Positions 8,766 through 44,142 of a stretch of DNA of 64,000 nt are shown in pieces. Numbering within the stretch: the first letter of the stretch is position 1; each line of letters begins with the position of its first letter. Both the position numbers and the translations under genes were made by a program. The DNA is taken from NCBI GenBank assembly GCA_029027985.1, contig CP119076.1, positions 868,001 through 932,000 of the forward strand, read 5' to 3'. This DNA comes from Klebsiella aerogenes (lineage in GTDB: Bacteria > Pseudomonadota > Gammaproteobacteria > Enterobacterales > Enterobacteriaceae). Under the pieces are notes generated by a model. It was not told the DNA's origin, ran no database searches, and saw only the letters and a program-made list of their open reading frames with translations.

Positions 8766-8776
8766 ACTCTCCTGGC

Positions 8777-9280: not shown

Positions 9281-9292
9281 CTCAGCCTCCGG

Positions 9293-9826: not shown

Positions 9827-9833
9827 GCGTTCC

Positions 9834-12467: not shown

Positions 12468-12547
12468 AGTCCCTCCGGTCTGAAGTCGCCCGGCTGTCAG
12501 TTCTTATTGTTATGCGCGGAGTGGCCCGCCCGGCGGACCATCCTGTG

Positions 12548-13273: not shown

Positions 13274-13308
13274 CGTTGTTTCCTGTTTCCGGCATCTCTG
13301 CTGGTTAA

Positions 13309-13857: not shown

Positions 13858-13877
13858 CCCAGTCCCGTTGTGGATAA

Positions 13878-13894
13878 CGGGCCGTCCTGGCCCG
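13878..13894 (-). other. Small GC hairpin in the fimA-fimI gap
   Basis: Arms CGGGCC and GGCCCG with a five-base loop, directly downstream of fimA and without a U-run. It could protect the fimA message or attenuate reading into fimI, as expected where the major subunit must greatly outnumber the rest. This is inference only. Confidence 0.35.
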
Positions 13895-13920
13895 GAATGC
13901 TTCCCTGTCTGATGTTTGAA

Positions 13921-14469
13921 TTACTCGTACTGCACTTTGAAGGTGGCGTCTGCGTTAGCAGTACCGGCAGTGGCCGCGCCAGTGGCGTAGTAACGCGCCT
14001 GGAAAGGAATGATGTTGGTGCCGTCGTTCAGCGTGGTGGCCGCGCTGAAGGTCGCGCCGTCCAGATCCAGCGGAGTGCCGGTTTTGTCGAGGATCTGAAC
14101 GCCGACGTTGGTCGCGCCGCCAGCAGCGGAGCTCTGCAGCGCCAGAACGCTGGTGTTGGTGGTATCAACCGCGGTACCGGAGAACGCTACGGAAGCTTTG
14201 GTGGAAACGGTGGTGTCACAATCATCTAACTGAATGTTGAAGCCAACGGCGGAGCTGGTGCTGCCCGCAGTAGCCAGTTTTGCCGAACGAACCTGGCCTA
14301 ACTGAACGGTCTGATCGATAGAACCGGCATCGACTGCACAGGCTGCGTTGACGATTTCTCCTTTAAAATGCACTGTACCGCCATTGACCGTGGTGGTATC
14401 AGCCAGGGCCGCCGCGGAGCTCAGGGACAGGGCTGACAGAACAACGATTGCCAGTGTTTTGATTTTCAT
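13921..14469 (-). CDS. fimA: FimA, major type 1 fimbrial subunit
   Basis: A 182-residue major pilin. The signal peptide ends ALA before [23 protein letters not shown], the donor strand and first cysteine; the second cysteine is in LDDCDT. It ends [10 protein letters not shown]. It is the first structural gene after the fimS switch; the ATG is preceded by AAAGGAAAACAGC. Expression needs the fimS promoter to point toward it. In this sequence the promoter points away, so fimA should be silent in the cells that were sequenced. Confidence 0.96.
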
Positions 14470-14963: not shown

Positions 14964-15560
14964 CTATTTCTTCTGCGCTTGTAAATTTTCCTCTAAAAGG
15001 TTGTTTCTTTCCCATATTCCGGCAAAACGCGCTGCATTACTGGCGGTATAACGCACCGTGTGACGAATATTGCGATGACCGAGATAATCCTGAATCAAAC
15101 GGGTATCTGCGCCCCTTTCCGCCAGCTCGTAGCCGCAGGCATGACGCAACATATGTGGATGAGTGTGAGTCACGGTACCGGCGTCCTCCCCGGCGGAACG
15201 GATAATACGATAAGCCTGCTGACGTGAAAGCGGGGTGCCGCGGCGTGAAATAAATAGCGCGTCGGTTTTCGCAGCGGCTTTCCAGCTTGCCCGTTGCTGG
15301 GTCCAGCGCTCGATAGCTTCACGCTCATCGAAGCGCAACGGGTGGACGGTAGAGAAGCCGTTCTTCAAACGGCGAACGTTAATGCGTCCTTCATTGAGAT
15401 CGAGATCGCGGTAGTGCAGATCGAGCAACTCGCTGATGCGCATACCGTGGCGAAAGGCCAGCAGGATCAGACAGTAATCCCGCTCCCCGGTCGGCCCGTG
15501 GCGAGCGGCCTGCATCATAGCCTGCACTTCTTTGGCGGTGAGAAAACGACGTCGGTTCAC
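14964..15560 (-). CDS. fimE: FimE, tyrosine recombinase for fimS
   Basis: A 198-residue site-specific recombinase made almost only of the catalytic domain. Catalytic residues are visible: Arg in HGMRISELLDL (about 41), His and Arg in HPHMLRHACGYELAERG, His in DYLGHRNIRHT and the nucleophile Tyr in VRYTASN. Of the two recombinase genes it is the one next to fimS, the place of FimE, which in E. coli turns the switch ON to OFF with strong bias. It ends 48 bases from the fimS repeat, so orientation of fimS can influence its transcript end, as in E. coli. Confidence 0.92.
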   Translation of the reverse strand: MNRRRFLTAKEVQAMMQAARHGPTGERDYCLILLAFRHGMRISELLDLHYRDLDLNEGRINVRRLKNGFSTVHPLRFDEREAIERWTQQRASWKAAAKTDALFISRRGTPLSRQQAYRIIRSAGEDAGTVTHTHPHMLRHACGYELAERGADTRLIQDYLGHRNIRHTVRYTASNAARFAGIWERNNLLEENLQAQKK

Positions 15561-16119
15561 AGTATTGAGCTCCTGAATTTAAATTGACTCGTAAGGGAGA
15601 TCCTGAGAAAAAAATCCCAGGATGGATAAAAAATAATCTGAATGCAAAGGCCGTAATATTTGAAGGGGCTAATGACAAAACAGGTATCACATTACATTTA
15701 CATATGTATAAATTACCGCCACGCGATAATTCTTATTTTTATCGATTTTATTCTTTACCACAATAGAACGGCGGTAGGTCGCCGCCAGGTGCATAAAATA
15801 GCAAGGAAAAAAGTTAATGCTAGCTATTTATTGGACGGAAAAAATGTGCTGAAAGGATTAATTTAACAATAAATGACGAACTGATATCCTGATAAATTAC
15901 AGGTGCATAGGAACATTTTTTTCATGTTCCAAATAAGAACTTTTAAGAACAATAAACATATTTAACGTATGGTTAATTTTTATTAATGTTTCGTAAGAAA
16001 AAATCTATATCTGAACTATTTTGCGCTATATCACAACGATAATGGAGTAAATTTTCAACAGTGCTAAACCAGTAGGTGAAGCATTGATTACGAAACGCCA
16101 TCCATGGCGTAGCGTGCCC
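15561..16119. other. fimE-fimB intergenic region, no gene recognised
   Basis: About 560 AT-rich bases between the two recombinase genes. It should contain the fimE promoter (E. coli transcribes fimE on its own). Short open frames here have no family features and poor composition. No repeat or RNA gene was recognised. Confidence 0.5.
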
Positions 16120-16725
16120 TTACTGGAAAAGAGAAGTGCGTTGTTTCTCGTGTGACTTATCCCAGATGCCGTAAAAGCGCCCGGCGTTGCTGGCCGTGTA
16201 CCAGACGGTATGGCGGATGTTGCGGTGACCCAGATAGTCCTGAATCAGGCGAGTATCAATGCCCATATTGGCCAGCGCGAAGCCGCAGGAGTGTCGTAGC
16301 ATGTGCGGGTGAATTTCCAGCGGCAACCCAGCCTGATCGCCGGAGGCAGAAATAATCTGGTAAAACTGCTGGCGTGAAAGCGGATTGCCTTTACGCGATA
16401 AAAATAGCCACTCGCTATCGGATTGCGGGTATTCGTCACGAATATCCAACCAGCGCTTTAGCGCCTGGATCTCTTTATTCAACAATGGATGTGTTGTGGA
16501 AAATCCTTTTTTTAAGCGGTGGATGTAAATACATTTTGAGCGTAGATCAATATCAGAAATCCGTAGACGGCAAATTTCACTGGCACGAAAACCATGAATA
16601 AAACAGAGTAATGTCAGGCAATAATTTCGGGCTGCATGTGGTCCGCTATTAGCAGCGTTAAGAAGTGACTCTATTTCATTCTGAGTCAGGAAGTTCCTTT
16701 TTTTTATATCGGCATTATTCTTCAT
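16120..16725 (-). CDS. fimB: FimB, tyrosine recombinase for fimS
   Basis: A 201-residue tyrosine recombinase, paralogue of the neighbouring FimE. Catalytic residues are visible: Arg in HGFRASEICRL, His/Arg in HPHMLRHSCGFALANMG, His in DYLGHRNIRHT and Tyr in VWYTASN. It lies farther from fimS, as FimB does, and in E. coli inverts the switch in both directions. It is more AT-rich than the structural fim genes. A long gene-poor region lies upstream of it. Confidence 0.92.
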   Translation of the reverse strand: MKNNADIKKRNFLTQNEIESLLNAANSGPHAARNYCLTLLCFIHGFRASEICRLRISDIDLRSKCIYIHRLKKGFSTTHPLLNKEIQALKRWLDIRDEYPQSDSEWLFLSRKGNPLSRQQFYQIISASGDQAGLPLEIHPHMLRHSCGFALANMGIDTRLIQDYLGHRNIRHTVWYTASNAGRFYGIWDKSHEKQRTSLFQ

Positions 16726-18334: not shown

Positions 18335-18808
18335 ATGGATAGCATAGATCGAAAAATTCTTGCTGAGCTACAGTCAGACGGACGTCTGTCGATTACCGAA
18401 CTGGCGGAGCGGGTCAATCTGAGCCTCTCTCCCTGCCACCGGCGCTTACGCGCGTTGGAGCAAGAGGGGGTGATCACCGGCTATCGCGCCAACCTCGACC
18501 CCGGCAAAATGGGGTTCAATTTTTTGGCTATCGTTTTTGCCACCCTAAAAGAGGGCGATAAGAAAGCGGTTAGCGCTTTTGAAGAGGCGGTGGCGGAGAT
18601 TCCGCAGATTGTGCTGGCGCAGCGGCTGTTTGGCGATCCGGACTATCTGATGCATGTGGTCTCCCGGGATCTCCCGGCCTTCCAGAAACTCTATGATGAC
18701 AAGCTGTCGGCGATGCCGGGCGTGCAGCATTTGCGTTCGACGCTGGTGATGAAGACGGTAGTACAGGATCGGCCTTTCCCGCTGGAAACGTTGAACGCAA
18801 CTCGCTAA
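18335..18808 (+). CDS. Lrp/AsnC family transcriptional regulator
   Basis: A 157-residue Lrp-type protein: an N-terminal helix-turn-helix (MDSIDRKILAELQSDGRLSITELAERVNLS, then CHRRLRALEQEGVI) and a C-terminal amino-acid-binding (RAM) domain with QRLFGDPDYLMHVVSRD. It is not Lrp or AsnC itself by context. Divergent from the LysE-type exporter, which it probably controls; its ligand is then likely the exported amino acid. A terminator follows. Confidence 0.9.
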   Translation: MDSIDRKILAELQSDGRLSITELAERVNLSLSPCHRRLRALEQEGVITGYRANLDPGKMGFNFLAIVFATLKEGDKKAVSAFEEAVAEIPQIVLAQRLFGDPDYLMHVVSRDLPAFQKLYDDKLSAMPGVQHLRSTLVMKTVVQDRPFPLETLNATR

Positions 18809-18809
18809 T

Positions 18810-18852
18810 GCCCCGCGCGCGGAGAGCCATCATGCGCTCGGGGCCGTTTTTT
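18810..18852 (+). terminator. Terminator of the Lrp-type regulator gene
   Basis: Arms GCCCCG (18810-18815) and CGGGGC (18839-18844), with inner pairing GCGC/GCGC, are followed by CGTTTTTT. It lies between two convergent genes and overlaps the end of the MHS transporter gene by two bases. Confidence 0.65.
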
Positions 18853-20176
18853 ACACCGTCGCCGCGGGTTCGCGCCGCGACTGCGGCGGGTGAATACTCA
18901 CCAGCGCGACCAACGCCAGCAGCGCGAAGGTCAGCAACATCAGCGCAATCGGCACATAACTATCCCAGGCCATTAAGAAAGCCACCGCCAGCATTGGGCT
19001 GATGCCGCCGGAAATGACCGCGCCAATCTCATGCCCTAACGCTAACCCGGTATAGCGTACTTCCACCGGAAACAGATCGACCATCATGCACGGCTGGGCG
19101 GCGATCATCGCGCCGTGGCATACCGGCAGCGCCAGTAGCATGGCGAGCAGAATCGCTGGAAAAGTGTGCACCTGTAGCAGCCAGAAGAAAGGGAAGGCGA
19201 CCAGCGCCATGCCGACTACGCCGAGATAGTAAACCCGCTTGCGGCCAATGCGATCGGAAAGCCAACCCCAGCCGAGGATGGTGGTGATTTCCACTGCCAT
19301 CGCGATGGTCACCGCGGCGATCACCTCGCGGGTGTCGATACCGATATGTTTGCAATACACCACCGAAAAGGTGAAGAAGATATACACCGCGCCATTTTCC
19401 GCCAGCCGCAGGCCGATCGCCTGTAAGATTGCGCGCGGATAGTTTTTACACGCGCTGAGCACCGGTAAATGGTGTTCTTCCTGATGTCCTTCGTTCTGCG
19501 TTTTACGCGCCACAAATTCGGCGTTCTCCTGAATATTACGCCGGATATAGACACCGACCAGAAAGATAAACAGGCTGAGCAGGAATGGAATACGCCACGC
19601 CCACGCCAGTACATCCTCCTGCGGCAGCAGCTGCACCAGATAAAACGCTAACGACGACAGCACGAATCCGCCGGAGACACCAACCTGGCTCCAGGCGGTG
19701 TAGTAGCCTTTCTGGCTTTCGGGGGCGTTCTCGCTGAGCATCAATACGCCGCCGCCCCATTCGCCGCCGGAAGCGACGCCCTGTACGAAGCGCAAGGTAA
19801 TCAGGGCAATCGGCGCCAGGATGCCGATGTGCGCATAGGTTGGCAGCAGGCCAATGAAGAAGGTGCTGGCGCCCATCAGCGTCAGGGTGATGATGAGGGT
19901 CATTTTGCGGCTGTATTTATCTCCGAGATGGCCAAATATTACCCCGCCGAGCGGGCGGGCGATAAAGCCGATGGCAAAGCCGGAAAATGCCAAAAATGAA
20001 CCGAGCAGCGGGTCGTTGCTGGCGGGGAAGAAGAGCGGGCCAAAAACCAGCGCCGCCGCGGTGCCATAGAGAAAAAAGTCATACCATTCCAGCGAATTAC
20101 CGAGAAAAGAGCCGATGATTAATTTACGCATCGATTGCGTCGGGGGGACCGTCGTACCGCTCGCAGCTCCAGACAT
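18851..20176 (-). CDS. MFS transporter of the metabolite:H+ symporter (MHS) family, putative auxin uptake
   Basis: A 441-residue, 12-helix transporter of the ShiA/ProP/KgtP (MHS) branch. Visible signatures: SLEWYDFFLYGTAAALVF in helix 1, GHLGDKYSRKMTL after helix 2, and RFVQGVASGGEWGGGVLMLSENAP in helix 4. It follows iacG on the same strand after 85 bases and is the last gene before a convergent terminator, so it probably belongs to the iac transcript. MFS transporters accompany iac clusters in other bacteria; import of indole-3-acetate is a reasonable inference, not shown by sequence. Confidence 0.85.
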   Translation of the reverse strand: MSGAASGTTVPPTQSMRKLIIGSFLGNSLEWYDFFLYGTAAALVFGPLFFPASNDPLLGSFLAFSGFAIGFIARPLGGVIFGHLGDKYSRKMTLIITLTLMGASTFFIGLLPTYAHIGILAPIALITLRFVQGVASGGEWGGGVLMLSENAPESQKGYYTAWSQVGVSGGFVLSSLAFYLVQLLPQEDVLAWAWRIPFLLSLFIFLVGVYIRRNIQENAEFVARKTQNEGHQEEHHLPVLSACKNYPRAILQAIGLRLAENGAVYIFFTFSVVYCKHIGIDTREVIAAVTIAMAVEITTILGWGWLSDRIGRKRVYYLGVVGMALVAFPFFWLLQVHTFPAILLAMLLALPVCHGAMIAAQPCMMVDLFPVEVRYTGLALGHEIGAVISGGISPMLAVAFLMAWDSYVPIALMLLTFALLALVALVSIHPPQSRREPAATV

Positions 20177-20261
20177 AATATGAACTCCAGTGCAGGTGAA
20201 TCAGGCGGCGCCGGATGGCGCCGGGCGATGTGTCGGCAGATTGTTATGGTTATGACGAGAC

Positions 20262-20756
20262 TTAACGGCAGGATGCCGTGCTGAGGGTATGGAACTGGCG
20301 GTTAAACCAGACCAGCCCATCGCTGGGATTGCCGAAGCGGATCTGTTTGACCTCGCAGTAAAATACGCTGTGGCTGCCCACTTCGTGACTGGTCGAAATG
20401 GTGCAGTCGCAGTTAGCGACGGCGGAAGCCAGCACCGGCGAACCGGTCTTTAACGCCAGCCATTCATCGTGTAGGAAGCGCTCTTCCGAACGGATCTGTC
20501 CATTGGCAAATACTCCGGAAAGCTGCTGATGCTGACCGGAGAGCACGTTGACGCACAGCACGCCGTTTTCCTGGAATTTAGCGTGGGCGAAGGATGAGCG
20601 GTTCATGCACACCAGCAGCGTCGGCGGCGAATCGGTGACACTGCACACCGCCGATGCGGTAAAGCCGAAGCGGCCCGCCGGGCCATCGGTGGTAATGATG
20701 GTGATCGCGCTACCCAACTGCGCCATGGCATTACGAAAATCAGATGTCAGGTTCAT
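20262..20756 (-). CDS. iacG: IacG, flavin reductase of indole-3-acetate degradation
   Basis: A 164-residue flavin reductase-like (HpaC/ActVB) domain protein: it begins MNLTSDFRNAMAQLGSAITIITTDG and contains GFTASAVCSVTDSPPTLLVCMN, the FMN-binding core, and VGSHSVFYCEV near the end. It supplies reduced flavin to the IacA monooxygenase. The longer open frame reaching 20909 overlaps iacF and its extra 51 residues are basic and family-foreign, so the start at 20756, 11 bases after the iacF stop, was chosen. Last enzyme gene in the iacHABICDEFG order. Confidence 0.9.
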   Translation of the reverse strand: MNLTSDFRNAMAQLGSAITIITTDGPAGRFGFTASAVCSVTDSPPTLLVCMNRSSFAHAKFQENGVLCVNVLSGQHQQLSGVFANGQIRSEERFLHDEWLALKTGSPVLASAVANCDCTISTSHEVGSHSVFYCEVKQIRFGNPSDGLVWFNRQFHTLSTASCR

Positions 20757-20767
20757 AGCAATACCCG

Positions 20768-21736
20768 TTATTTCAGTTTGACGTATTCGAAGCCTTCGAT
20801 AACCAGTCGGGGGGTTTTGGCCCGCGAACAGCACAGCAGGATCTGGTCGTTGTCTTCGCGTTCTTCTTCGGTTAAATACTCGTCGCGGTGGTCTGGTACG
20901 CCGCTGCAAACGTTAGCGAGGCAGGTTCCGCAGACTCCTTGTTCACAGGAGACTTTGACCTTGATACCTGCCTTTTGCAGCGCGGCGACAATGGTCTCGT
21001 TTTCCGCGACGGCGACGGTGAGGCCGAGTTCCGGGACCTCGACCTCAAAACGGTCGCCACAGGTTTCCACCTCGCGGTTGAAATACTCTTGATGCAGTCG
21101 TTCCGCGGTAAAGCCGCAACCCTGAGCCGCCTCGTTGATCCACGCCATAAAGCCTTCCGGGCCGCAAACGTACAGATGCCCGGCGGCAGCATGAGGCGTC
21201 AGGAGTTCCTGCGGGCGGATCTTGTGGCCTTCATCGCTGATATGCAGGCGAACGTGGTCGCTAAAGTGACAATCCGCCAGCTCAGTTAAGAAAGCCATTT
21301 CATCGCGGCTGTGGCCACAGTAGTGCACCTCGAAAGATTTCCCGGCGCGAAACAGCGTATCGGCCATCGCCAGCATCGGCGTAATACCAATGCCGCCGCC
21401 AATCAGCAGACTGTGGCTGGCGGACATCTCCAGTTCAAACAGGTTGCGCGGCGCGCTAATCCGCACCTCGTCGCCGGACTGTAACGCGTGCGCCGCCAGC
21501 GAACCGCCGCGCGAGGCACGATCTTTGAGGATCCCCAGCCGATAGCTCTGCGGGTGATGGGCGCTGCCGCACAGCGAATACTGGCGCACGATGCCATCAC
21601 CGAGATGCAGATCGATATGTGCGCCGGCGCTAAATGGGGGCAGGGGAGCGCCGTCCGGCGAGGCCAGCGTCAGGACCACCACATCAGCTCCCTGAATGTC
21701 GCGTTCTGTGACGCGTACGATGAATGTTTCAGCCAT
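20768..21736 (-). CDS. iacF: IacF, FNR-type reductase with C-terminal 2Fe-2S domain
   Basis: A 322-residue phthalate-dioxygenase-reductase type protein. Order of domains: flavin-binding barrel with RQYSLCG (about residues 50-56), NAD-binding domain with GGGIGITPMLAMA, and a plant-type ferredoxin domain at the end with the cysteines of SCEQGVCGTC and LLCCSRA. It passes electrons from NAD(P)H to the IacCD Rieske oxygenase. It lies between iacE and iacG with short gaps (24 and 11 bases). Confidence 0.92.
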   Translation of the reverse strand: MAETFIVRVTERDIQGADVVVLTLASPDGAPLPPFSAGAHIDLHLGDGIVRQYSLCGSAHHPQSYRLGILKDRASRGGSLAAHALQSGDEVRISAPRNLFELEMSASHSLLIGGGIGITPMLAMADTLFRAGKSFEVHYCGHSRDEMAFLTELADCHFSDHVRLHISDEGHKIRPQELLTPHAAAGHLYVCGPEGFMAWINEAAQGCGFTAERLHQEYFNREVETCGDRFEVEVPELGLTVAVAENETIVAALQKAGIKVKVSCEQGVCGTCLANVCSGVPDHRDEYLTEEEREDNDQILLCCSRAKTPRLVIEGFEYVKLK

Positions 21737-21760
21737 GGTTGTTCTCCGCCCGAGAAGGGC

Positions 21761-22501
21761 TTAACGCATATAAATGCCGCCGTTGATATCCCAGGTCGCG
21801 CCGGTAATAAAGGTAGCGGACGGCGCCGCCAGCAGCTCCACCGCGCGGGCGACCAGCAGCGGATCGCCAAGCCGCTTCATCGGGATCATCTCCAGCAGCG
21901 CGGGCATTTTTTCTTCCGGTACCGCAGCGCGTACTGAAGGAAGATCCAGCGGCCCCGGCGCGATCGCGTTGACGCTGACGCCAGCGGCGCTCAGGGCGCG
22001 GGCGAATACTTTGGTCAGCGTGATAATGCCGCCTTTAGACGCCGCATAATGGGCGCCGGAGGCGGTGCCGCCGTTCTGTCCGGCCAACGATGCGAGGTTG
22101 ATAATGCAGCCCTGCTGGCGTTCGCTGAAATAGCGACCGATGGTCTGGCAGCCGACGAAGGTGCCGCGCAAGTTCGTGCTGGTGACGCGATCGAATTCGT
22201 CGACCGTGATCTCCATGATCGGCGTAGTCAGGGTCAACGCGGCATTGTTGACCAGCACGTCCAGCTCGCCGAAGCGGGCGCAGGTTTGCGCCAGCGCGGC
22301 GCTGAACTGCTGCGGATCGCGGATATCCAGCGCCAGCGGCAGTAATCGCTCCAGACCGGCATCTATCGCTTGCGCGCTCTGCGTCGCAGCATCAAGACTG
22401 AGATCCGCCATCGCCACCTGATAGCCCTGTTGCCAGAGATGGCGGCTGATGACCAGCCCAAGGCCGTTAGCCGCGCCGGTAATAAGTACGCTACGTTTCA
22501 T
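21761..22501 (-). CDS. iacE: IacE, short-chain dehydrogenase
   Basis: A 246-residue classical SDR. The NAD-binding glycine motif TGAANGLG (residues 8-15), NNAAL, the catalytic Ser region NLASLAGQNGG and the YAASK pair are all present. In studied iac systems IacE acts right after IacA on the hydroxylated indole-acetate intermediate on the way to dioxindole-3-acetate. It sits between iacD (7 bases) and iacF (24 bases), the usual position. Confidence 0.92.
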   Translation of the reverse strand: MKRSVLITGAANGLGLVISRHLWQQGYQVAMADLSLDAATQSAQAIDAGLERLLPLALDIRDPQQFSAALAQTCARFGELDVLVNNAALTLTTPIMEITVDEFDRVTSTNLRGTFVGCQTIGRYFSERQQGCIINLASLAGQNGGTASGAHYAASKGGIITLTKVFARALSAAGVSVNAIAPGPLDLPSVRAAVPEEKMPALLEMIPMKRLGDPLLVARAVELLAAPSATFITGATWDINGGIYMR

Positions 22502-22508
22502 AAAGGCC

Positions 22509-22988
22509 TCACAGGATGTAGCCGATGCTATGCAGGAAGTCGTCGCCGTTAATCAGGCGCACGACCTTTTGTACGATGCGGAAGCTGTCGCCCTCCGGCG
22601 CCAGCGTATAGGTGACGTCGGCGGCGTAGTGCTGTTCATTTCCCTTACGGTATTCGTAGAGGAACTGGGCGCAGCGCACTTCGACGCAATCATCGCTGGC
22701 GCTGAGCAGACGATGCCGACCGCTCATGCGGATGGTGCGTGCGCGCGGCGTGGTGGAGATTGATTCGCCGCTGTACAACCGGTGCACGCGTTTTTCCCGC
22801 ATTTCGTGGTTGTCGTAGGCATAGTTGAGCACGTTGGCGAAATCGGTGGTCTGTTGGTCTATCGGGATGATGTACATTCCCTCGGTGCGCCACAGCGCCA
22901 GCCACTCGCGAAATTCGCCCTGATCGAGCAGGTCCGCTTCCTGATTAATAAACTGGATGGCGGCGTTTAATGCGGTTGAAACGTTCAT
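22509..22988 (-). CDS. iacD: IacD, small (beta) subunit of Rieske dioxygenase
   Basis: A 159-residue ring-hydroxylating dioxygenase beta subunit (NTF2-like fold), starting with AAIQFINQEADLLDQGEFREWLALW and containing RVHRLYSGESIS and RTIRMSGRHRLL. It has no metal site of its own and forms the alpha3beta3 oxygenase with IacC. Start overlaps the iacC stop (ATGA), so the two subunits are made by coupled translation in equal amounts. Confidence 0.92.
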   Translation of the reverse strand: MNVSTALNAAIQFINQEADLLDQGEFREWLALWRTEGMYIIPIDQQTTDFANVLNYAYDNHEMREKRVHRLYSGESISTTPRARTIRMSGRHRLLSASDDCVEVRCAQFLYEYRKGNEQHYAADVTYTLAPEGDSFRIVQKVVRLINGDDFLHSIGYIL

Positions 22989-24292
22989 TTTTGCCCCCGG
23001 CTGTCAGCGGTCATGTACTGTTTCCATTGTTGGTAAGCGGCGCGCATGCCGGTTTCGGCGCTGACGTCGCTACGCAGACCATCGGCGGTACGGCTCTCGC
23101 CGGGCAGGCCGCGGTTGAGCATGATCCACAGATCGTTGCCCGCGCCGCCGCCGCGCTGAACGCGCTCCCAGGCTTCGGAGTCATCGGGGGTACCGAAGCC
23201 CATCGGCCCCTGGAAGTGTTCATGCAGACGTAGCCGCGCCTGGTTGGCGATCGCCGGGCCGTCTTTCATGGTTAACACCACGTGATGAATTTCGGTCTCT
23301 TTGACCGACACCGGCTGCAGCACGCGGAAGAACGCCATAGAACAGGCGACATTCGGGAACAGATTAAGGTTAAAACCGCTGCCGCCGACTGCGCGGACGA
23401 TGCGTCGTACCTGCTGCTCTTCGTGGCCTTCATCGCGCAGGGCCTGGGCCAGCTCGACAAAGCGCTCAGGAATCGGCGCATCGAGATTGGCTTCCAGATC
23501 GATAAGTTCGGGGATCATCACCATGACGCTGTGGCCGTTGCCGAGATCTTCGACAAAGCCTTTACCGTCGACGAAGTTGAGCATCTCTTCCGTTTGTTTA
23601 TCGACCGAGCTTAAAAACGACTTATGCACGATGGGGAAGTGATAGCCGTCGGTGGTGTTTTCCAACTGGATTTTCCAATTGCCCGGGAAACGGAAACGGT
23701 GCGCGGTGGTGGCCTGCAAAGCATAGCCCGCGCCCTGTTTCATAAACAGATCCATCCACTTCATCGCCGGGCCGAGGAAGTCGGTCAGCGGTTCGATGTC
23801 GTGGTTGAAGCTGGCGAAAATCATCCCGGCGTAGCTTTCAACGCGCAGGCGCACCATGCCAAGTTCGGATTTATTCAGCGTATCGCCGTAGCTTTCAGGA
23901 TGCGGCACCCCGCGCAGCGCGCCGTCGAGACCATAGCCCCAGCCGTGGTATGGGCAGGTGAAGCCGTTGGTTTTGCCGCTGCGATGTTCGCAAACGGTGG
24001 CGGCGCGGTGGCGGCAGCGGTTGAGCAGCACGTTGATGTTGCCTTTGCGGTCGCGGACCACGATCACCGGCTGGGTGCCGACCATCGACGATTTATAGCT
24101 GCCCGCGTCGGGAATTTCACTTTCGTGCGCCACCCATACCCATGTCTGGTTAAAAATCTTGTCGATCTCGAGGTCAAAAATTTCCTCGGACGTATAGAGA
24201 CAGGTATGAACCCGATCGCTTTGCACCAGCGCTGCCAGCGATTCCGCGGTAGGGTGGGTGTCGATATTTTTTACCGGAATACATTCAGACAT
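22985..24292 (-). CDS. iacC: IacC, large (alpha) subunit of Rieske dioxygenase
   Basis: A 435-residue Rieske oxygenase alpha subunit. The Rieske [2Fe-2S] ligands are Cys93, His95, Cys113 and His116 (CRHRA and CPYHGW). The mononuclear iron site is in TTDGYHFPIVHKSF, giving the two His ligands and the bridging Asp. It is thought to cleave or dioxygenate the indole-derived ring later in auxin degradation. The start at 24292 has GGAGAGTGACA in front; the 23 extra residues of the longer frame reaching 24361 run into iacI and were rejected. Confidence 0.93.
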   Translation of the reverse strand: MSECIPVKNIDTHPTAESLAALVQSDRVHTCLYTSEEIFDLEIDKIFNQTWVWVAHESEIPDAGSYKSSMVGTQPVIVVRDRKGNINVLLNRCRHRAATVCEHRSGKTNGFTCPYHGWGYGLDGALRGVPHPESYGDTLNKSELGMVRLRVESYAGMIFASFNHDIEPLTDFLGPAMKWMDLFMKQGAGYALQATTAHRFRFPGNWKIQLENTTDGYHFPIVHKSFLSSVDKQTEEMLNFVDGKGFVEDLGNGHSVMVMIPELIDLEANLDAPIPERFVELAQALRDEGHEEQQVRRIVRAVGGSGFNLNLFPNVACSMAFFRVLQPVSVKETEIHHVVLTMKDGPAIANQARLRLHEHFQGPMGFGTPDDSEAWERVQRGGGAGNDLWIMLNRGLPGESRTADGLRSDVSAETGMRAAYQQWKQYMTADSRGQK

Positions 24293-24314
24293 TGTCACTC
24301 TCCACAACTCTCTT

Positions 24315-24830
24315 TTAATTACAATCAGGCACCGGCAAATCGGCGAGCGAATGCCAGTCATCTACCGGGCGGCTAAATAAATTCCGGGTAGTAAAATGAT
24401 GAATTAACCATTGATCGTCTTGTTTTATAAATTTAATAATCAGCTCGGCGCTATTTAAATGTGAACCGCCACGGCGAAACGTCGAGGCTTGCAACATTTT
24501 CCAGCGGCCGATCGCTTGGTTATTTTCACCAACGTTAATATGCTCCGCCGTCAAATAATGAACGTTGATGGCGAAGTGCGATGGCTCGCTAATATAAGCG
24601 GCCATCATCGCGACGATAGCTTCTCTGCCCTCATGGCGCCCGAGCTTATGTTGATATAATTCGCCGATACCTTGCCAAATAGCCGCTTCGCTAAATAGCT
24701 CGCCAATTTGCCGGGCGGTATCCGGATGCGTTAAATCATCGCAGAGGTGCATGTACTGGCTAATGGCGTTGCGGATTTGCACGACGGCTTCCAGTTTTTC
24801 GAGGCGCTGCAGCAGCGTTTCTTCGCGCAT
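24315..24830 (-). CDS. iacI: IacI, SnoaL-like protein of auxin degradation
   Basis: A 171-residue NTF2/SnoaL-like protein: N-terminal LEAVVQIRNAISQYMHLCDD helix and a cone-shaped fold ending in QWLIHHFTTRNLFSRPVDDW. SnoaL folds carry out isomerase, hydratase or oxygen-insertion reactions without metals. IacI is part of all canonical iac clusters and takes part in an intermediate step after IacA/IacE. Its position between iacB (3-base gap) and iacC is that of the HABICDEFG order. Confidence 0.9.
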   Translation of the reverse strand: MREETLLQRLEKLEAVVQIRNAISQYMHLCDDLTHPDTARQIGELFSEAAIWQGIGELYQHKLGRHEGREAIVAMMAAYISEPSHFAINVHYLTAEHINVGENNQAIGRWKMLQASTFRRGGSHLNSAELIIKFIKQDDQWLIHHFTTRNLFSRPVDDWHSLADLPVPDCN

Positions 24831-24833
24831 ACA

Positions 24834-25178
24834 TCAGGCCTGAATAATCAGTTCGCGACCGGTGCGCGCTTCCACCTTGCAGTACTTCCACAGGCGGTCC
24901 GGCCCCGCGCCGACCTGAACGGTACGGAACAGGTTGCAGGCGGCGGTGACGGCGTCGAAATCGCGCGCGTCGGCCAGTACATAGGTGGTCCACGGCCAGG
25001 ACGTCGAAGGGCCGACCATGACCCGGTCATCGTCCATATTGCCGAGTACGTGGATACCGTCGGTGTTGTCGATACCTTTCATCATCTCGCCGAAGGCGGC
25101 CCATACCTGTTTGCCGACGTCCGGCGTGGCATCGAAAAAGTTCTGATTAACACCTATGCAAAAGAGTACGCGGATCAT
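24834..25178 (-). CDS. iacB: IacB, small protein of auxin degradation, function uncertain
   Basis: A 114-residue soluble protein beginning MIRVLFCIGVNQNFFDATPDVGKQ and ending GRELIIQA. It resembles a small ferredoxin-like (dimeric alpha-beta barrel) protein and has no catalytic motif that I can point to. It is recognised by size and by its place between iacA and iacI. The exact reaction or chaperoning role of IacB is not established. Gap to iacI is 3 bases, so the two are probably translated together. Confidence 0.85.
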   Translation of the reverse strand: MIRVLFCIGVNQNFFDATPDVGKQVWAAFGEMMKGIDNTDGIHVLGNMDDDRVMVGPSTSWPWTTYVLADARDFDAVTAACNLFRTVQVGAGPDRLWKYCKVEARTGRELIIQA

Positions 25179-25196
25179 AAATGGCTCCTTGTGTTG

Positions 25197-26363
25197 TTAT
25201 AAATAGCCGGGCTGCGGCGGATGGCCGAAGAACATATTGCCGGCGTTGATGTAGGTCAGTTCGCCCATAAAGGCATGTTGGGTGATCACCATCGAGTCGC
25301 GGGCATAGCGCTGCAGCGGGCTGTGCATTGAAATGCCCGGCATCCCGGCGAGCTTCAGCGCACGGGTGGTGACTGAAGAAGAGACGCGGGTGACGTGGGT
25401 AGAAGAGAGGCGCAAGGCGTTAATCATCTCTTCATTCGGTTCGTCGCCGCGCAGAATCGCCTGCCAGACGTCGTCGATGGCGTCATAGAACCAGCAGCGC
25501 GCCGAACGCAGTTCCGCTTCGCAGTGAGCGATTTCCATCTGCGCGAACTGGCGATCCGCCAGACACGGCGCGCCGGTGACCGAACTTTGGCGCTCGGCGA
25601 TGGCGTAGATTTCTGAGAGCGCGGCGCGGGCGATGCCCAGCGCAACCACCGACAGCACCTGAGTGGCCAGCGACAGCACCGGATAGCGGTATAACGCGCC
25701 TTCAAGGTTGAGCTCGCCGCCGCGAATAAAGCTCCACTCCTGCGGTACGAAGGCATTATTCAACACCACGTCATGGCTGCCGGTGCCGGACAAACCGACG
25801 GTATTCCACACCGGATCGATGGTGAACTCAGTGGCGGGGAGTACCGCAATACGCGGCAATGGACGGGCGGAACCGTCATCCGGAATGATGCCGACGCCGA
25901 TGAGTTCAGCGCCGCTACAGCCGCTGGCAAAGCTCCAGCGCCCGCTGACGCGATAGCCGCCATCCTGCGTCGTCGCCTTTTGCGGTGGGAAGATACCGCC
26001 AGCGAAGACGATATCCGGGCCGTGACGGTACAGCTCATCCAGGGTTGCCAGCGGCAGGCCGCCAAGATAAAACGGATTCATGCCGAAACTGGCGACCCAG
26101 CCAGCGGAGCCGTCGGCAGTGGAGAGGGTTTCAACCAGCTGGCAAAATTCCGCCGGGGAGATTTCATCGCCGCCGTAACGTTTTGGCACCAGCGCGCGGT
26201 AGACGCCAATCTTTTTAAAGCGTGAAATAATATCCTGCGAGATATATTTCTGTTGCTCGAATTCCTCACTGCGCGTTTTTATATCCGCGAGTAATTCAGA
26301 AAATTCCGATGTCGTGGCGTGCGGCGTCTTTTCCGCACGCGGGGTAGCAGACGGGTTTAACAT
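25197..26363 (-). CDS. iacA: IacA, flavin-dependent monooxygenase that starts indole-3-acetate breakdown
   Basis: A 388-residue protein with the acyl-CoA dehydrogenase fold of two-component (group D) flavin monooxygenases such as HpaB/HsaA: helical N-terminus, central barrel with GGYRVSGRWSFASGCSGAELIG, and C-terminal four-helix bundle. IacA hydroxylates the indole ring of indole-3-acetate using reduced flavin from IacG and can turn indole into indigo in tests. The gap to iacH is 101 bases, to iacB 18 bases. It is the diagnostic gene of the cluster. Confidence 0.92.
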   Translation of the reverse strand: MLNPSATPRAEKTPHATTSEFSELLADIKTRSEEFEQQKYISQDIISRFKKIGVYRALVPKRYGGDEISPAEFCQLVETLSTADGSAGWVASFGMNPFYLGGLPLATLDELYRHGPDIVFAGGIFPPQKATTQDGGYRVSGRWSFASGCSGAELIGVGIIPDDGSARPLPRIAVLPATEFTIDPVWNTVGLSGTGSHDVVLNNAFVPQEWSFIRGGELNLEGALYRYPVLSLATQVLSVVALGIARAALSEIYAIAERQSSVTGAPCLADRQFAQMEIAHCEAELRSARCWFYDAIDDVWQAILRGDEPNEEMINALRLSSTHVTRVSSSVTTRALKLAGMPGISMHSPLQRYARDSMVITQHAFMGELTYINAGNMFFGHPPQPGYL

Positions 26364-26464
26364 GCGATTTAGCCTCTTCCAGTTAAAGAAAGTTTTTTAT
26401 TATTGTAGTTTTGATTTTCTGATATTCCCTTTGCTTGGCCGATTCGCCCGCAAAGGGTTATTTA

Positions 26465-27610
26465 TTATTTTAATTTTTCTAGCAAATATTCCGTGAAGTT
26501 AAGTAAATCAAATTCTTTATTTTTTCCGGCGATCAATTGCAGGGCCACCGGGCGACGCTCAATTTCACCAAGCGGCAGGCTCAGCGCCGGGTGGCCGCTT
26601 AAATTAAACGGGCGAACCAGACGGGTGAGATTCACTACGTTGAGCGGATTGGCCGCTTCCTCGAGCGACGGCGGACAATCCGGCAGCGTCGGTAACAGAA
26701 TCAACGGCGTCTTCGCCAGTTGTGTATCCACCGCGGCGCTAAATGCCTGACGCACGTTTTCCGCCGCCTGCCGCTGCTGCGGACTGATTTCCGCGCCAGC
26801 GCGGATCCGTTGTGCGACGTCCGGAGCCAGATTTGGCGCGTCGATGATAGGGTGGAACGCCTGCCAGTTCTCCTGGCTTATGACCGTGAGCCCGGCCTGA
26901 TGCGCCTCATGGAATCCGGGTAGTTCGGCGGATGTCCACGACAGCCCCGCATGCTGCAGACGCGCGACGATGAGTTGTTCAATGGCGGGCGTTGCCGTGC
27001 CGGCCAGATAGCTTATCGCGGGCGCTGCGCCGCCTGACGTCGATGCGGTTTCGCCCAGCGCTTTCGCCAGCGCCTGACGCAGAGTGGTGATATCGCGGGC
27101 AAACAAGCCGACGCAGTCGAGTGAACTCTGCGCTGGCATGACCCCGGCGCGACTGAGGCGGCCAAAGCTCGGCTTCAGGCCAATAATGCCGCAGCAGGCG
27201 GCAGGCATCCGTACCGAGCCGCCGGTGTCGGTGCCCACGGCGAAGTCGACTTCACCGGCGGCGACCACGGCGGCAGAACCGCTGGACGAGCCGCCGGGGA
27301 TCAGCGACGGATAATGCGGGTTCAGCGGCGTACCGCTCCATGGGTTGATGCCGGTGACGCCAAATGCCAGCTCATGCAGGGTGGTTTTGCCGCGAAGCTG
27401 GCAGCCGTGATCGAGTAGCGCCTGGACCACGGCGGCATGGTCGGCGGCTGGCGGCGTATCTTGCAGCACCGGGCTGCCGGCGCGGGTCGGGAAACCGGCG
27501 ATATCGAGGCTGTCTTTGACCGCAAACGTCAGCCCGTCTTTGCCGAGGCTGAAGCGCGAGATAAACCCGGATTGCGCGTTTTCTGTCTCTGTTCGATGTT
27601 CAGTCGTCAT
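26465..27610 (-). CDS. iacH: IacH, amidase-family protein
   Basis: A 381-residue amidase-signature hydrolase. Visible are the Lys of VKDSLDIAG, the Gly/Ser-rich IPGGSSSGSAAVVAAGEVDFAVGTDTGGSVRMPAACCGIIGLKPSFGR signature shown in part here, which supplies the Ser-cisSer-Lys triad, and a C-terminal VALQLIAGKNKEFDLL end. In iac clusters IacH acts late, releasing a carboxylated or amine product from the ring-opened intermediate. It is the first gene of the iac operon; the promoter should lie within 27611-27931. Confidence 0.88.
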   Translation of the reverse strand: MTTEHRTETENAQSGFISRFSLGKDGLTFAVKDSLDIAGFPTRAGSPVLQDTPPAADHAAVVQALLDHGCQLRGKTTLHELAFGVTGINPWSGTPLNPHYPSLIPGGSSSGSAAVVAAGEVDFAVGTDTGGSVRMPAACCGIIGLKPSFGRLSRAGVMPAQSSLDCVGLFARDITTLRQALAKALGETASTSGGAAPAISYLAGTATPAIEQLIVARLQHAGLSWTSAELPGFHEAHQAGLTVISQENWQAFHPIIDAPNLAPDVAQRIRAGAEISPQQRQAAENVRQAFSAAVDTQLAKTPLILLPTLPDCPPSLEEAANPLNVVNLTRLVRPFNLSGHPALSLPLGEIERRPVALQLIAGKNKEFDLLNFTEYLLEKLK

Positions 27611-27931
27611 GATTCACATATCCGTTTAGTGGTGACACTTGCCGCCTGCCTGCAACTCTATTTAGGGTATAAATGACTAAAAAACGACCCGCTGGCGTCT
27701 GAGGTAATCTTGTCATTAAAACTTGAAAATTCAAGTAATCTGTTGGCGGGTTTTTACGGTGGAAATAGCGATAAGATCGTTTTATAAAACAAAGATAATT
27801 TTTAATTTATTGATTTTATTTAATAAAATTTAATGGATAAATTTTAATCTCTTGAGGGCCGTCACAAAAACAAATGCAAAATATAAGTTAAAAAAATGAT
27901 AAAAAAGTGTGCGAAAAACGAAGGGTAGGGT
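27611..27931. promoter_or_regulatory. iacH upstream region, strongly AT-rich
   Basis: About 320 bases without a gene between the iacR terminator and iacH. The part from about 27770 to 27930 is notably AT-rich compared with the genes on both sides. It must hold the main iac promoter; no convincing -35/-10 pair was fixed. It contains the 16-base inverted repeat at 27721-27736. Confidence 0.6.
27721..27736. promoter_or_regulatory. Candidate MarR-type operator upstream of iacH
   Basis: A perfect inverted repeat ACTTGAA-AA-TTCAAGT lies 111 bases upstream of the iacH start, in the AT-rich gap between iacR and iacH. MarR-family dimers bind such sites of about 16 bases. That IacR binds here is inference. 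Confidence 0.5.
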
Positions 27932-27968
27932 AAAAAAAAAGAATAACCATTTGCGATAAATGGTTATT
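27932..27968 (-). terminator. Terminator of iacR
   Basis: An 11-base-pair hairpin (AATAACCATTT/AAATGGTTATT, loop GCGAT) followed on the minus strand by nine T after one C. It directly follows the iacR stop, so iacR is transcribed apart from iacHABICDEFG although it lies upstream on the same strand. Confidence 0.88.
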
Positions 27969-27980
27969 ATTGTGAAGGGA

Positions 27981-28457
27981 TTAATCGTCGAAATTATGCA
28001 GAATTAGAGCCAGCACCTGATTCATTTTCTTTTCCTGCGCTGGGGTGATGCCCTTAAATGCTTTGGCGAAGATGATTTCCGCTAACGCCCGGGCTTCCGC
28101 AACCTTGGCCTCGCCGGCGGCCGTGAGTTCCGCTTCGGTTACCCGGCCATCGCTGGCGCTGACGTGAGTGGTCAGCAGGCCGTCATCGCGCAGGCGGCCA
28201 ACGATTTTGGTCACGGTCGGCATCTTGCTAACGGCATATTCGGTAATGCGCGAGATGCTGGCGCGATGGTACTGATGAACCAGCATCAGCACGCGGAAAC
28301 GGGAAAGATCGATATCGATTTTTTTGAGCTCTATTTCCATTAACTGGGTGTAGCGGGCGTAAACGTTAACCACCCAGAAGAAGGGAAACTCTTCTTTATG
28401 GAAGCGGCTTTCATGGCTCTCTGGCGGGGTCGAAGAGTGAGTCTTATCCACAAGCAT
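27981..28457 (-). CDS. iacR: IacR, MarR family regulator of auxin degradation
   Basis: A MarR-type regulator of about 158 residues with a winged helix (RFRVLMLVHQYHRASISRITEYAVSKMPTVTKIVGRLRDDGLL) and helices for dimer formation at both ends. IacR proteins repress iac genes and release DNA on binding indole-3-acetate. Start choice is uncertain: the ATG at 28457 follows AAGGAG with no spacer, whereas a GTG two codons later (28451) has the same AAGGAG at a normal distance of six bases and may be the true start. The frame extended to 28625 would overlap the next gene and is not family-like. Confidence 0.88.
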   Translation of the reverse strand: MLVDKTHSSTPPESHESRFHKEEFPFFWVVNVYARYTQLMEIELKKIDIDLSRFRVLMLVHQYHRASISRITEYAVSKMPTVTKIVGRLRDDGLLTTHVSASDGRVTEAELTAAGEAKVAEARALAEIIFAKAFKGITPAQEKKMNQVLALILHNFDD

Positions 28458-28607: not shown

Positions 28608-29567
28608 ATGATAACCATTCGTCATTTAACGCATGATAAACGCCTGCTGCTGGCAGGTGTGCTGGGGATTGCGCTTTTGTGGGCGGGTATGACGCTGCAT
28701 GCTCACTGGGGGGCATTTATCCAGTGGTGCCTGGCGACGCAAATTACCCTGCATCGCTACCTGGTCATGTACCTGTTACAGCTCAACAACCACCAGTACA
28801 GCGGTGGTATCTGGCTGTTAGTCGGCGCGTTTCTCTATGGCGTGCTGCACGCCATCGGGCCAGGACACGGCAAATTTATCGTGACGACCTATCTCAGCAC
28901 CAATCAGGAAAGCCAGGCGGCGGCGCGGGTGGTGCCATTTCTTGGCAGCCTGATGCAGGGGGTGAGCGCGATACTCTTCGTCTTTATCCTTGCGGTAGGG
29001 CTGAACCTGGCTTCCGGCGATCTCAGCGCCAGCCGCTGGTATGTGGAGAAAATCAGCGCCCTGATGATTGGCGTGTTCGGCGGGTTCGTTATCTATCAGG
29101 CGCTGAAAAGTATGTGGCCACGAAAAATGAGCATCAGCGCGTTGACGCCTCTGCATGAACATGATGAACAGTGCGGCTGCGGCCACCATGGCGTCGGGCG
29201 CGAGCTACCCGGCGCAGACTGGAAAACCCGCCTCGGCGTGGTGCTGGCGATCGGCGCTCGGCCGTGCAGCGGCGCGATCATGATCCTGATGTTCGCTAAC
29301 GCGCTGGGTATTGTCAGCTGGGGCATCGCGGCGGTGATGACCATGGCGCTTGGTACTGCGCTCTCGATCCTCGGGCTGTCGCTGGCGGTGCGCTACGCGC
29401 GCAGCCGGGTGGTCAGCCTGTTTGCCGCCGATGGCCGCCAGCTTTACTGGCTGGTGCCGATGATTAAAATAATGGGCGGCGTGTTGCTCATTTTGTTCGC
29501 CGCGGTATTGTTTCTGACCGTGATCCCGATTAGCGCCAATGGCGATTTTATTGCCGCTGGCTGCTAG
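28608..29567 (+). CDS. NicO/RcnA-type nickel-cobalt transporter
   Basis: A 319-residue inner membrane protein of the NicO superfamily with about seven helices. Key motifs are HAIGPGHGKFIVTTYL (about residues 80-95) and a cytoplasmic His/Cys-rich loop LHEHDEQCGCGHHGVG (about 183-198), then AIGARPCSGAIMILMFANALGI. RcnA-type members export Ni/Co. No RcnR-type repressor gene lies next to it. It is divergent from iacR but seems unrelated to auxin breakdown. Start preceded by AAAGGTGATGACATC. Confidence 0.85.
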   Translation: MITIRHLTHDKRLLLAGVLGIALLWAGMTLHAHWGAFIQWCLATQITLHRYLVMYLLQLNNHQYSGGIWLLVGAFLYGVLHAIGPGHGKFIVTTYLSTNQESQAAARVVPFLGSLMQGVSAILFVFILAVGLNLASGDLSASRWYVEKISALMIGVFGGFVIYQALKSMWPRKMSISALTPLHEHDEQCGCGHHGVGRELPGADWKTRLGVVLAIGARPCSGAIMILMFANALGIVSWGIAAVMTMALGTALSILGLSLAVRYARSRVVSLFAADGRQLYWLVPMIKIMGGVLLILFAAVLFLTVIPISANGDFIAAGC

Positions 29568-30070
29568 TCATTCTCCAGCAGGCGCATAAATACCCGCAGC
29601 GCCTCGTCTAACTGCTGGCGCTGCGTGTCCGATAGCCCTGCCAGCAGCTGATGCTCATTTGCGACGTGGGTTTCCACTGCCCCATCGATCAGGCGTCGTC
29701 CCTCCGGCGTCAGCGCCACCAGCATGCTGCGCGCATCCTGCGGATTAGACAGCCGCGTAATCAAGCCGCGTTTTTCCAGCGCCTTGAGGCGATGGGTCAT
29801 GGTGCCGGATGTAATCATCAGGGTGGAAAAAAGCTGCGTTGGCGATAACACAAAGGGCTCGCCGGTGCGGCGCAGCGTCGCCAGCATGTCAAATTCCCAG
29901 CGCACCAAAGAATGTTTAACAAATGCCGCCTCCACGCGCGGTTCCAGCAGCATGGCGCAGCGTTTCAGGCGGCCAATCGGCCCCATCGGGCGGCAGTCCA
30001 GATCGGGGCGTTCGCGCTGCCATTGGGAGAGGATGCGGTCAACGGCATCCGCCTGCGGTGATTTGTCCAT
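29564..30070 (-). CDS. PecS-like MarR family regulator
   Basis: A 168-residue MarR protein with an extra N-terminal helix ending in ERPDLDCRPMGPIGRLKR, a hallmark of the PecS/urate-responsive branch (compare WRNERPDLDVEPM in Dickeya PecS). The winged helix follows (LSPTQLFSTLMITSGTMTHRLKALEKRGLITR). It is divergent from a PecM-like exporter, the classic pecS-pecM arrangement, with two CTTGATAT operators between them. PecS regulators respond to urate or pH/oxidative signals at plant or host surfaces; the ligand here is inferred. Its end overlaps the NicO gene by 4 bases. Confidence 0.85.
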   Translation of the reverse strand: MDKSPQADAVDRILSQWQRERPDLDCRPMGPIGRLKRCAMLLEPRVEAAFVKHSLVRWEFDMLATLRRTGEPFVLSPTQLFSTLMITSGTMTHRLKALEKRGLITRLSNPQDARSMLVALTPEGRRLIDGAVETHVANEHQLLAGLSDTQRQQLDEALRVFMRLLEND

Positions 30071-30150: not shown

Positions 30151-31017
30151 ATGGCCTTTTTCACTCGTAATCTGGCGGTGGATCTCCTGCTTACCGCCCT
30201 GGCTCCTGCTATCTGGGGGACGACCTATATCGTGACTTCGCAGTTTCTGCCGCCGGATCGTCCCTTTATTGCGGCGTTGTTGCGAGTATTGCCCGCTGGG
30301 ATAGCGTTGCTACTGTGGAGCCGCCGCGTTCCGCTGCGCGGCGAGTGGTGGAAGCTGGTTATTACCGGCATTTTGAATATTGGCGCGTTTCAGGCGCTGT
30401 TGTTTATCGCGGCCTACCGTTTACCTGGCGGTCTGGCGGCGGTGATCGGCGCCATCCAGCCGCTGTTGGTGATGCTGTTGGCCTGGAGCGTTGACCGCCA
30501 ACGCTCGCCGTGGCTGGCGGTGGTCTCCGCCTGCGCTGGGATTATCGGCATGGCGATGCTGCTGCTCTCGCCGCAGACGGTGCTCGACCCGTTAGGTATC
30601 GGGGCCGCATTCCTCGGTGCGATCAGCATGGCACTGGGGACCTGGCTGTCGCGGCGCTGGGCGCTTTCTTTGCCGGTTGTGGCGATGACCGGGTGGCAAC
30701 TGTTAATTGGCGGGATTGTGCTGTTGCCCATCGCGCTGCTGGTGGACCCGCCGCTGCGCCAGGTCACGATGCCGCAGGCCGCTGGCTATGTGTGGCTATG
30801 CGTTGCCGGAGCGATGTTGGCCTATGGCTTATGGTTTCGCGGAATCAGCCGTTTGTCGCCGGTGTCGGTGTCGGCGATGAGCCTGTTAAGCCCGGTGACG
30901 GCGGTGCTGCTGGGATGGGTATTTCTCGGGCAGAGCATAAAAGGAATGGCGCTGGTGGGGCTTATCGTGGTGCTGGCGAGCGTGCTATCGATTCAACGGG
31001 CGCTGGCGAAGCGCTGA
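30151..31017 (+). CDS. PecM-like EamA family exporter
   Basis: A 288-residue, 10-helix drug/metabolite transporter with two EamA repeats (about residues 10-140 and 150-285). Early motif LAPAIWGTTYIVTSQFLPPDRP matches PecM of Dickeya, which exports the pigment indigoidine or a related compound. Divergent from the PecS-like gene. No indigoidine synthase is present nearby, so the exported compound is unknown. Confidence 0.87.
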   Translation: MAFFTRNLAVDLLLTALAPAIWGTTYIVTSQFLPPDRPFIAALLRVLPAGIALLLWSRRVPLRGEWWKLVITGILNIGAFQALLFIAAYRLPGGLAAVIGAIQPLLVMLLAWSVDRQRSPWLAVVSACAGIIGMAMLLLSPQTVLDPLGIGAAFLGAISMALGTWLSRRWALSLPVVAMTGWQLLIGGIVLLPIALLVDPPLRQVTMPQAAGYVWLCVAGAMLAYGLWFRGISRLSPVSVSAMSLLSPVTAVLLGWVFLGQSIKGMALVGLIVVLASVLSIQRALAKR

Positions 31018-42057: not shown

Positions 42058-42232
42058 TAATCCCTCCCTTTTGTCATTCATTCTGTATGCCGGGTTGAGT
42101 CAGTACCTGGCTTACCGCTATTTTTTTCTATGCTGTCAAAAATGGATAAACATCCCAGACTTATTGGATAGCTAATACCCAGTGACCTGTATTGAATGGT
42201 TCTTCCACCTGCACAACAATGAGATCATTCAA

Positions 42233-44133: not shown

Positions 44134-44142
44134 GAGGCCGTC

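Follow-up and report, generated by a model that had tools for sequence, protein, structure and literature searches.

This report concerns a gene cluster of the iac type, for degradation of the plant hormone auxin, indole-3-acetic acid (IAA), in a strain deposited as Klebsiella aerogenes (assembly GCA_029027985.1, contig CP119076.1), within a 64,000-nucleotide stretch (positions 868,001 to 932,000 of the contig) that is referred to below as the window. Eleven genes, all on the minus strand, occupy window positions 18851-28457, each reading without interruption from an ATG to a single stop: iacR, followed by iacH, A, B, I, C, D, E, F and G and by a symporter gene of the metabolite:H+ symporter (MHS) type within the major facilitator superfamily (MFS). 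A sequence-only reading of the window had given exactly this span, and every gene it named is present in the order and on the strand proposed. The features are listed in the direction of transcription, with the evidence for each assignment.

27981..28457, minus strand: iacR, MarR-family repressor of 158 residues (Pfam MarR; phmmer against PDB)
27942..27968, minus strand: probable intrinsic terminator behind iacR (11-bp arms without mismatch, followed by a run of T)
27721..27736, no strand assigned: candidate IacR operator ACTTGAA-NN-TTCAAGT (palindrome upstream of iacH)
26465..27610, minus strand: iacH, amidase-fold protein (Pfam Amidase, 4e-69; catalytic motifs)
25197..26363, minus strand: iacA, flavin-dependent monooxygenase with acyl-CoA-dehydrogenase fold, HsaA-like (identity to Enterobacter soli, Pseudomonas composti LY1 and Acinetobacter baumannii DS002)
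24834..25178, minus strand: iacB, 114 residues, without assigned family (72% identity to E. soli)
24315..24830, minus strand: iacI, SnoaL-like protein (Pfam SnoaL_4, 8e-15)
22985..24292, minus strand: iacC, Rieske oxygenase alpha subunit (Pfam Rieske and Ring_hydroxyl_A; 79% identity to E. soli; metal-site motifs intact)
22509..22988, minus strand: iacD, Rieske oxygenase beta subunit (Pfam Ring_hydroxyl_B, 8e-22)
21761..22501, minus strand: iacE, short-chain dehydrogenase/reductase (SDR; Pfam adh_short_C2; 69% identity to E. soli)
20768..21736, minus strand: iacF, FNR-2Fe-2S reductase (Pfam Fer2 and NAD_binding_1; four-Cys motif)
20262..20756, minus strand: iacG, flavin reductase (Pfam Flavin_Reduct, 4e-36, run on 20262-20747; ATG start at 20756)
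18851..20176, minus strand: MHS-type MFS symporter (TIGR00883 metabolite/H+ symporter, 5e-116)

Pfam and NCBIfam place ten of the eleven proteins in the expected families, in agreement with the families proposed from the letters alone; the exception is IacB. Intact motifs were found in the four proteins tested: CxH-x17-CxxH and N-x2-D-x2-H-x4-H in IacC, GxxxGxG and YxxxK in IacE, C-x4-C-x2-C...C in IacF, and the lysine, GGSSSGS and GTDTGGS elements in IacH. For the ten proteins scanned against NCBIfam, none of the matches listed (the best 25 of 218 for the SDR and the best 25 of 26 for the amidase) reaches its curated cut-off or is named iac, so the iac assignment rests on orthology and gene order. 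Linked homologues of all nine structural genes, iacA to iacI, lie on a single strand in an operon-like array and were matched gene by gene to E. soli, at 53-79% identity, and to P. composti LY1; IacA is 72% identical to its counterpart in E. soli, 59% in P. composti LY1 and 52% in A. baumannii DS002. The best 80 of 432 confirmed relatives from a genome-contig scan were compared as loci, of which 28 are enterobacterial and 52 are not, the former having been assigned by sequence and including records titled Chryseobacterium (L039) and Serratia (L050). The order HABICDEFG recurs in all 28 enterobacterial loci, with iacR in 27 and the symporter in 27, so that a chance arrangement is not an issue; it is also found in 40 of the 52 other loci, some of the remaining 12 ending at contig ends. 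These comparisons support the earlier description of the locus as a complete and intact iac-type cluster on an enterobacterial chromosome, predicted to convert IAA to catechol.

The regulator belongs to the IacR branch of the MarR proteins, its only matches in the PDB at E<=1e-8 by phmmer being the three solved IacR structures: 7l19 from E. soli (7.5e-54), 7kua from P. putida and 7l1i from A. baumannii, which the available part of the source describes as solved in a study of IAA binding. Tyr36 of the window protein would align with the tyrosine taken as Tyr44 of P. putida IacR, if the 7kua chain carries a 24-residue tag. The iacH gene starts 370 bp beyond the iacR stop, and the intervening gap opens with the probable terminator, whose stem is also found after iacR in locus L110, although a consensus scan did not list it. 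Further along the gap lies the palindrome ACTTGAA-NN-TTCAAGT, with identical arms and four different centres in all eight window, K. aerogenes, Raoultella, Enterobacter sp. JUb54 and plasmid sequences. Every one of the 31 iacR-iacH gaps that could be read contains its core, TTACTTGAA-NN-TTCA: the gap of the window, those of L108-L110 and those of 27 of the 28 enterobacterial loci, the gap of L044 being cut and unreadable. TTACTTGAA itself occurs 30 times on both strands across all DNA of 30 loci (about 650 kb), or once per gap. The full palindrome has a single occurrence in the whole genome, and the window holds one match against 0.01 expected. Conserved in all readable gaps, with one TTACTTGAA per gap and a single full copy in this genome, the palindrome is the best candidate for, and probably is, the IacR operator; the literature on E. 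soli LF7 may already describe a site.

From these assignments a route can be proposed in which IacR would repress the operon promoter upstream of iacH through the palindrome, and binding of IAA would free it. The symporter, whose presumed substrate is IAA, would import the compound; IacA, supplied with reduced flavin by IacG, would convert it to 2-oxoindole-3-acetate, IacE would form 3-hydroxy-2-oxindole-3-acetate, and IacC, IacD and IacF together with IacH, IacI and IacB would carry this product on to catechol, which the chromosomal catBCA and pca genes would take into central metabolism. The IacA and IacE steps are described as demonstrated in Caballeronia glathei in the available part of PMC7225977, and would proceed likewise here. 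At 2.57 Mb the genome holds catB, catC, catA, a pcaR-type regulator and benABCD; catB, catC, catA, benB, benC and benD exceed the curated cut-offs, the regulator falls below its own (279.5 of 284.75 bits), and two pcaF matches and one pcaD match exceed theirs. With catBCA, pcaD and pcaF present, a route from catechol to central metabolism is probable. The symporter scores 388 bits against TIGR00883, below the cut-off of 443, and was matched within the fetched flank in 27 of 28 enterobacterial loci versus 1 of 52 others, which makes it look like an enterobacterial addition to the cluster.

That the strain degrades auxin is our extrapolation from the genes, and IAA might be only one of several substrates, the natural one being another indole such as indole-3-propionate, -butyrate, -lactate, -acetamide or indole itself. 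The available part of PMC7225977 describes C. glathei IacA as oxidising many 3-substituted indoles in Escherichia coli and IacE as acting on some of the products, and the amidase fold of IacH reaches 181 bits against indoleacetamide hydrolase, far below the 532-bit cut-off. The proximity of IacR to the three proteins solved in the IAA-binding study speaks for IAA, and its side-chain acetyl unit presumably suits the later Iac steps; we therefore hold another natural substrate to be unlikely. The genome also carries an indolepyruvate-decarboxylase-like gene (G000:C1:1387018-1388634), scoring 863.5 of the 946 bits needed, and the strain may also make IAA.

A second aromatic locus lies in the same window. 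Directly after kduD, positions 41056-45156 on the plus strand hold a gene that by eye looks AraC-type, followed by antABC, the genes of anthranilate 1,2-dioxygenase (3/3 over curated cut-offs), with a guanine-plus-cytosine (GC) content of 48%, and similarity to the K. aerogenes-like genome G001 ends at the end of kduD. AntA matches in 13 other same-genus genomes are 47-48% identical, as is the strain's own BenA, and the best plasmid relative of antA is in Pseudomonas resinovorans (NC_004444.1, 79%). The iac pathway might end at anthranilate, as in the iad type, and feed this true antABC (42182-45156), 13.7 kb away. We judge this highly improbable: gene content and regulator are of the iac type, for which catechol is the product in the available parts of the published work, and antABC, with its low GC and with a close AntA confined to this genome among 20 of the genus, looks like a separate arrival.

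IacB is 72% identical to its E. soli counterpart and has 38 invariant columns over 30 homologues. At E<=1e-3 neither Pfam nor NCBIfam yields a family for it, and the best Pfam E-value among the 30 homologues is 0.036, for an unrelated family. In the K. aerogenes-type loci of NCTC10006 and G001, iacI begins 17 bases after the iacA stop with no iacB between them (junctions at L162 5540-5570 and L110 15160-15190), while the window retains the gene. These two records are 99.86% alike over 19 kb and so perhaps represent one strain sequenced twice; no IacB match was found in the NCTC10006 record of the plasmid collection, a search that did not extend to the rest of the K. aerogenes chromosome. The available part of PMC7225977 states that IacB is not needed for the first two steps in C. 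glathei and calls its role unclear.

The cluster occupies a defined chromosomal site, which it shares with a NicO gene between lrp and a marR-EamA pair.

18335..18808, plus strand: lrp/asnC-type regulator, left flank (Pfam; flank mapping)
28608..29567, plus strand: NicO-family membrane protein, in the same interval and outside the pathway (Pfam NicO)
29564-30070, minus strand: marR gene, right flank (Pfam; flank mapping)
30151-31017, plus strand: EamA/DMT gene, right flank (Pfam; flank mapping)

All six same-genus iac carriers have the cluster beside marR-EamA, five of them opposite lrp. The same flanks enclose iac in the three Raoultella species (R. terrigena, R. ornithinolytica and R. planticola) and in K. 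aerogenes; in Enterobacter sp. JUb54 the right flank and fimB/fimE-type genes are retained, and lrp was not found. Seven genomes (G003, G004, G007, G009, G010, G016 and G017) have an empty site, with lrp within about 0.45 kb of marR-EamA and neither iac nor a NicO gene between them. In G002, G014 and G015 the site holds the NicO gene and a broken 5-prime iacR stub, which contains stops in G002 and G015 and is cut after residue 103 in G014; G002 also retains a scrap of the symporter, and no lrp match was found in G015. Both flank genes of G005 are absent at the thresholds used. The locus, relic and plasmid comparisons used IacG and IacR queries that lacked a few residues and had a set first residue; the per-gene identities given above use corrected starts. 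Near the site, two fimB/fimE-type recombinase genes lie at 14964-16725 on the minus strand, the part at 16120-16725 matching the Pfam phage integrase, beside a gene set at 7854-14469 (minus strand) that by eye looks fimbrial.

A tree of seven core genes, built on 8,340 columns and with stars on 14 of its 17 inner branches, is divided by a branch with full support into two sides: the six carriers, the three genomes with iacR stubs and three K. pneumoniae-type genomes on one, the seven empty-site genomes and G005 on the other. In the iac protein tree the window and G001 pair first, R. terrigena joins next, and the R. ornithinolytica/R. planticola pair and a group of JUb54 and two plasmid copies follow; the branching of this tree among carriers follows the core tree, with both plasmids beside JUb54, and among the 20 genomes compared the window lineage is placed as sister to K. 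aerogenes. This tree has 29 rows (the window, G001, four Raoultella/JUb54 loci, two plasmids, 18 of 24 other enterobacterial loci and three Pseudomonas), leaves out L035, L039, L044, L047, L054 and L055, uses G001 in place of L110, and was a quick search that gave a warning that long branches meet. One gain and at least four losses fit best. On this reading the island most likely entered the lrp/marR-EamA interval once, before the Raoultella, K. pneumoniae-type and aerogenes-type lineages parted. It would later have disappeared several times, three genomes retaining iacR stubs, and the K. variicola and K. pneumoniae plasmids would have received their copy from a JUb54-like lineage.

The plasmid copies come from a search of 72,556 plasmid records with IacA, which gave 42 matches at E<=1e-60; Klebsiella accounts for three. 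Among these three, LR134122.1 (L110) is labelled a plasmid and matches the chromosomal neighbourhood, with G001 at 99.86%, and was therefore counted as chromosome. The other two are IncFIB/IncFII plasmids, typed as conjugative, from freshwater K. variicola RHBSTW-00883 and from K. pneumoniae RX.G5M15, whose source is a shoe. Each has the full set of nine structural genes together with iacR; across 8.8 kb the two agree at 99.8%, and both share 94.5-94.6% DNA identity with the JUb54 chromosome. An F-type transfer region was seen on the K. variicola plasmid; the K. pneumoniae plasmid was viewed at its iac neighbourhood only. Symporter residues 84-377 are lost alike in both copies (L108 20284-20691; L109 20284-20709), so that uptake may not strictly need the symporter there.

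Several observations weigh against a resident, IAA-degrading island with this history. On the metabolic side, benA reaches 735 of the 781 bits required, the cat/ben locus lies 1.68 Mb from iac, unlike the iac-adjacent placing in some other bacteria, the consensus scan gave no promoter upstream of iacH, and, according to the available part of PMC9304994, less IAA accumulated in co-culture when iacA of a Klebsiella isolate was silenced, which is not what a simple IAA-degrading role predicts. On the historical side, in G012, G013 and G019, which we guess to be the K. pneumoniae group, the site has the NicO gene and lacks both lrp and any iac relic; the core tree was rooted by choice on the seven empty-site genomes and G005; and the fewest unordered changes of iac state on it, four, are equally given by four gains. 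The last two points and the two recombinase-like genes nearby would favour several independent gains at one hot spot over one gain and repeated loss. The stubs in G002, G014 and G015 and the symporter relic in G002 show former presence, the core and iac trees agree on the carriers, and the GC of the cluster (57.2%) is similar to that of the whole window (55.6%), which leaves repeated gain improbable. Since parsimony alone allows four gains, the relics carry the case for losses, and since the K. pneumoniae-type genomes lack an iac relic, the evidence that an ancestor of theirs and of K. aerogenes had the cluster is the common site, the NicO gene and the agreement of the trees. On balance, a resident and intact island under IacR control, feeding IAA through catechol into central metabolism, gained once, lost several times and copied to plasmids from a JUb54-like lineage, is in our view very probable. 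A bolder version, in which auxin degradation is ancestral in the Raoultella/K. pneumoniae/K. aerogenes branch, decayed repeatedly, disappeared from the K. pneumoniae group and is now returning to it on conjugative IncF plasmids, with K. aerogenes as a natural iacB deletion, appears to us evenly poised.

IacA was found in 6 of the 20 same-genus genomes, the own genome included, which bears out the earlier claim that the cluster is not usual in Klebsiella. Across the family the cluster is spread, IacA occurring in 21 of 392 genomes and 10 of 154 genera (one of the 21, G387, being only 34% identical and probably not IacA); named carriers include R. terrigena, R. ornithinolytica, R. planticola, E. 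soli, Kluyvera, Leclercia, Silvania, Lelliottia, Buttiauxella and Pseudocitrobacter. No IacA match was found in 20,395 E. coli records searched in near mode. The record titled Chryseobacterium, L039, holds an enterobacterial iac locus and is probably mislabelled or contaminated.

Raoultella and K. aerogenes also live in animals. Their carriage of iac stands in contrast to a survey that screened metagenome-assembled genomes from the guts of animals and humans and, in its available part, reports neither iac nor iad loci among them (PMC11630574). If functional, such bacteria could remove IAA at roots and wherever it is a host-relevant tryptophan metabolite. To judge from the scars and plasmids, gene transfer may have restored a catabolic trait that had been lost. 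Direct comparison with the K. aerogenes locus, where iacB is missing, could make the role of IacB testable; the shared-site history and the plasmid copies are the part worth following up.

Compared with known systems, the cluster is an ordinary one of known kind, and its enzymes are not new. According to the available parts of PMC9613470 and PMC11373566, the E. soli iac locus is published and functional, with strain LF7 studied, so iac in Enterobacteriaceae is not new either; iac genes are also reported in a Klebsiella isolate in the available part of PMC9304994. E. soli ATCC BAA-2102 (L043) shares the gene set, order, upstream iacR and symporter, as well as TTACTTGAA-NN-TTCA before iacH, but its locus lies at another chromosomal site, with no flanks in common within the fetched locus, and its outer right palindrome arm deviates. 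All nine structural proteins of P. composti LY1 (L070) are 48-76% identical to those of the window, whereas the compared stretch gave no IacR or symporter match; IAA degradation is described for Pseudomonas sp. LY1 in the available part of PMC8383072, by its name probably the same strain. The plasmid of A. baumannii DS002 (L204) has the order H, A, B, I, C, D, E, F, G, as the sequence-only reading had stated for Acinetobacter, with eight of nine structural proteins at 46-73%, but its best IacG match is 27% and no linked symporter or IacR match was found in the fetched stretch. The iad loci of Variovorax and Bradyrhizobium resemble the system in aerobic IAA degradation with MarR regulators, as far as the available sources describe them, and are set apart by other genes and by anthranilate as product. 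The nearest relatives share the site itself. R. terrigena, R. ornithinolytica, R. planticola and Enterobacter sp. JUb54 have the same site and order, with IacA at 88-89%; they differ in that the lrp and lysE-type neighbours were not found in the JUb54 locus, nor the NicO gene in that of R. planticola. K. aerogenes NCTC10006/G001 has the same site and flanks with proteins 86-97% identical, and differs from the window in lacking iacB between iacA and iacI, in lacking the NicO gene at the site, and in carrying fimbrial genes between its symporter and lrp.

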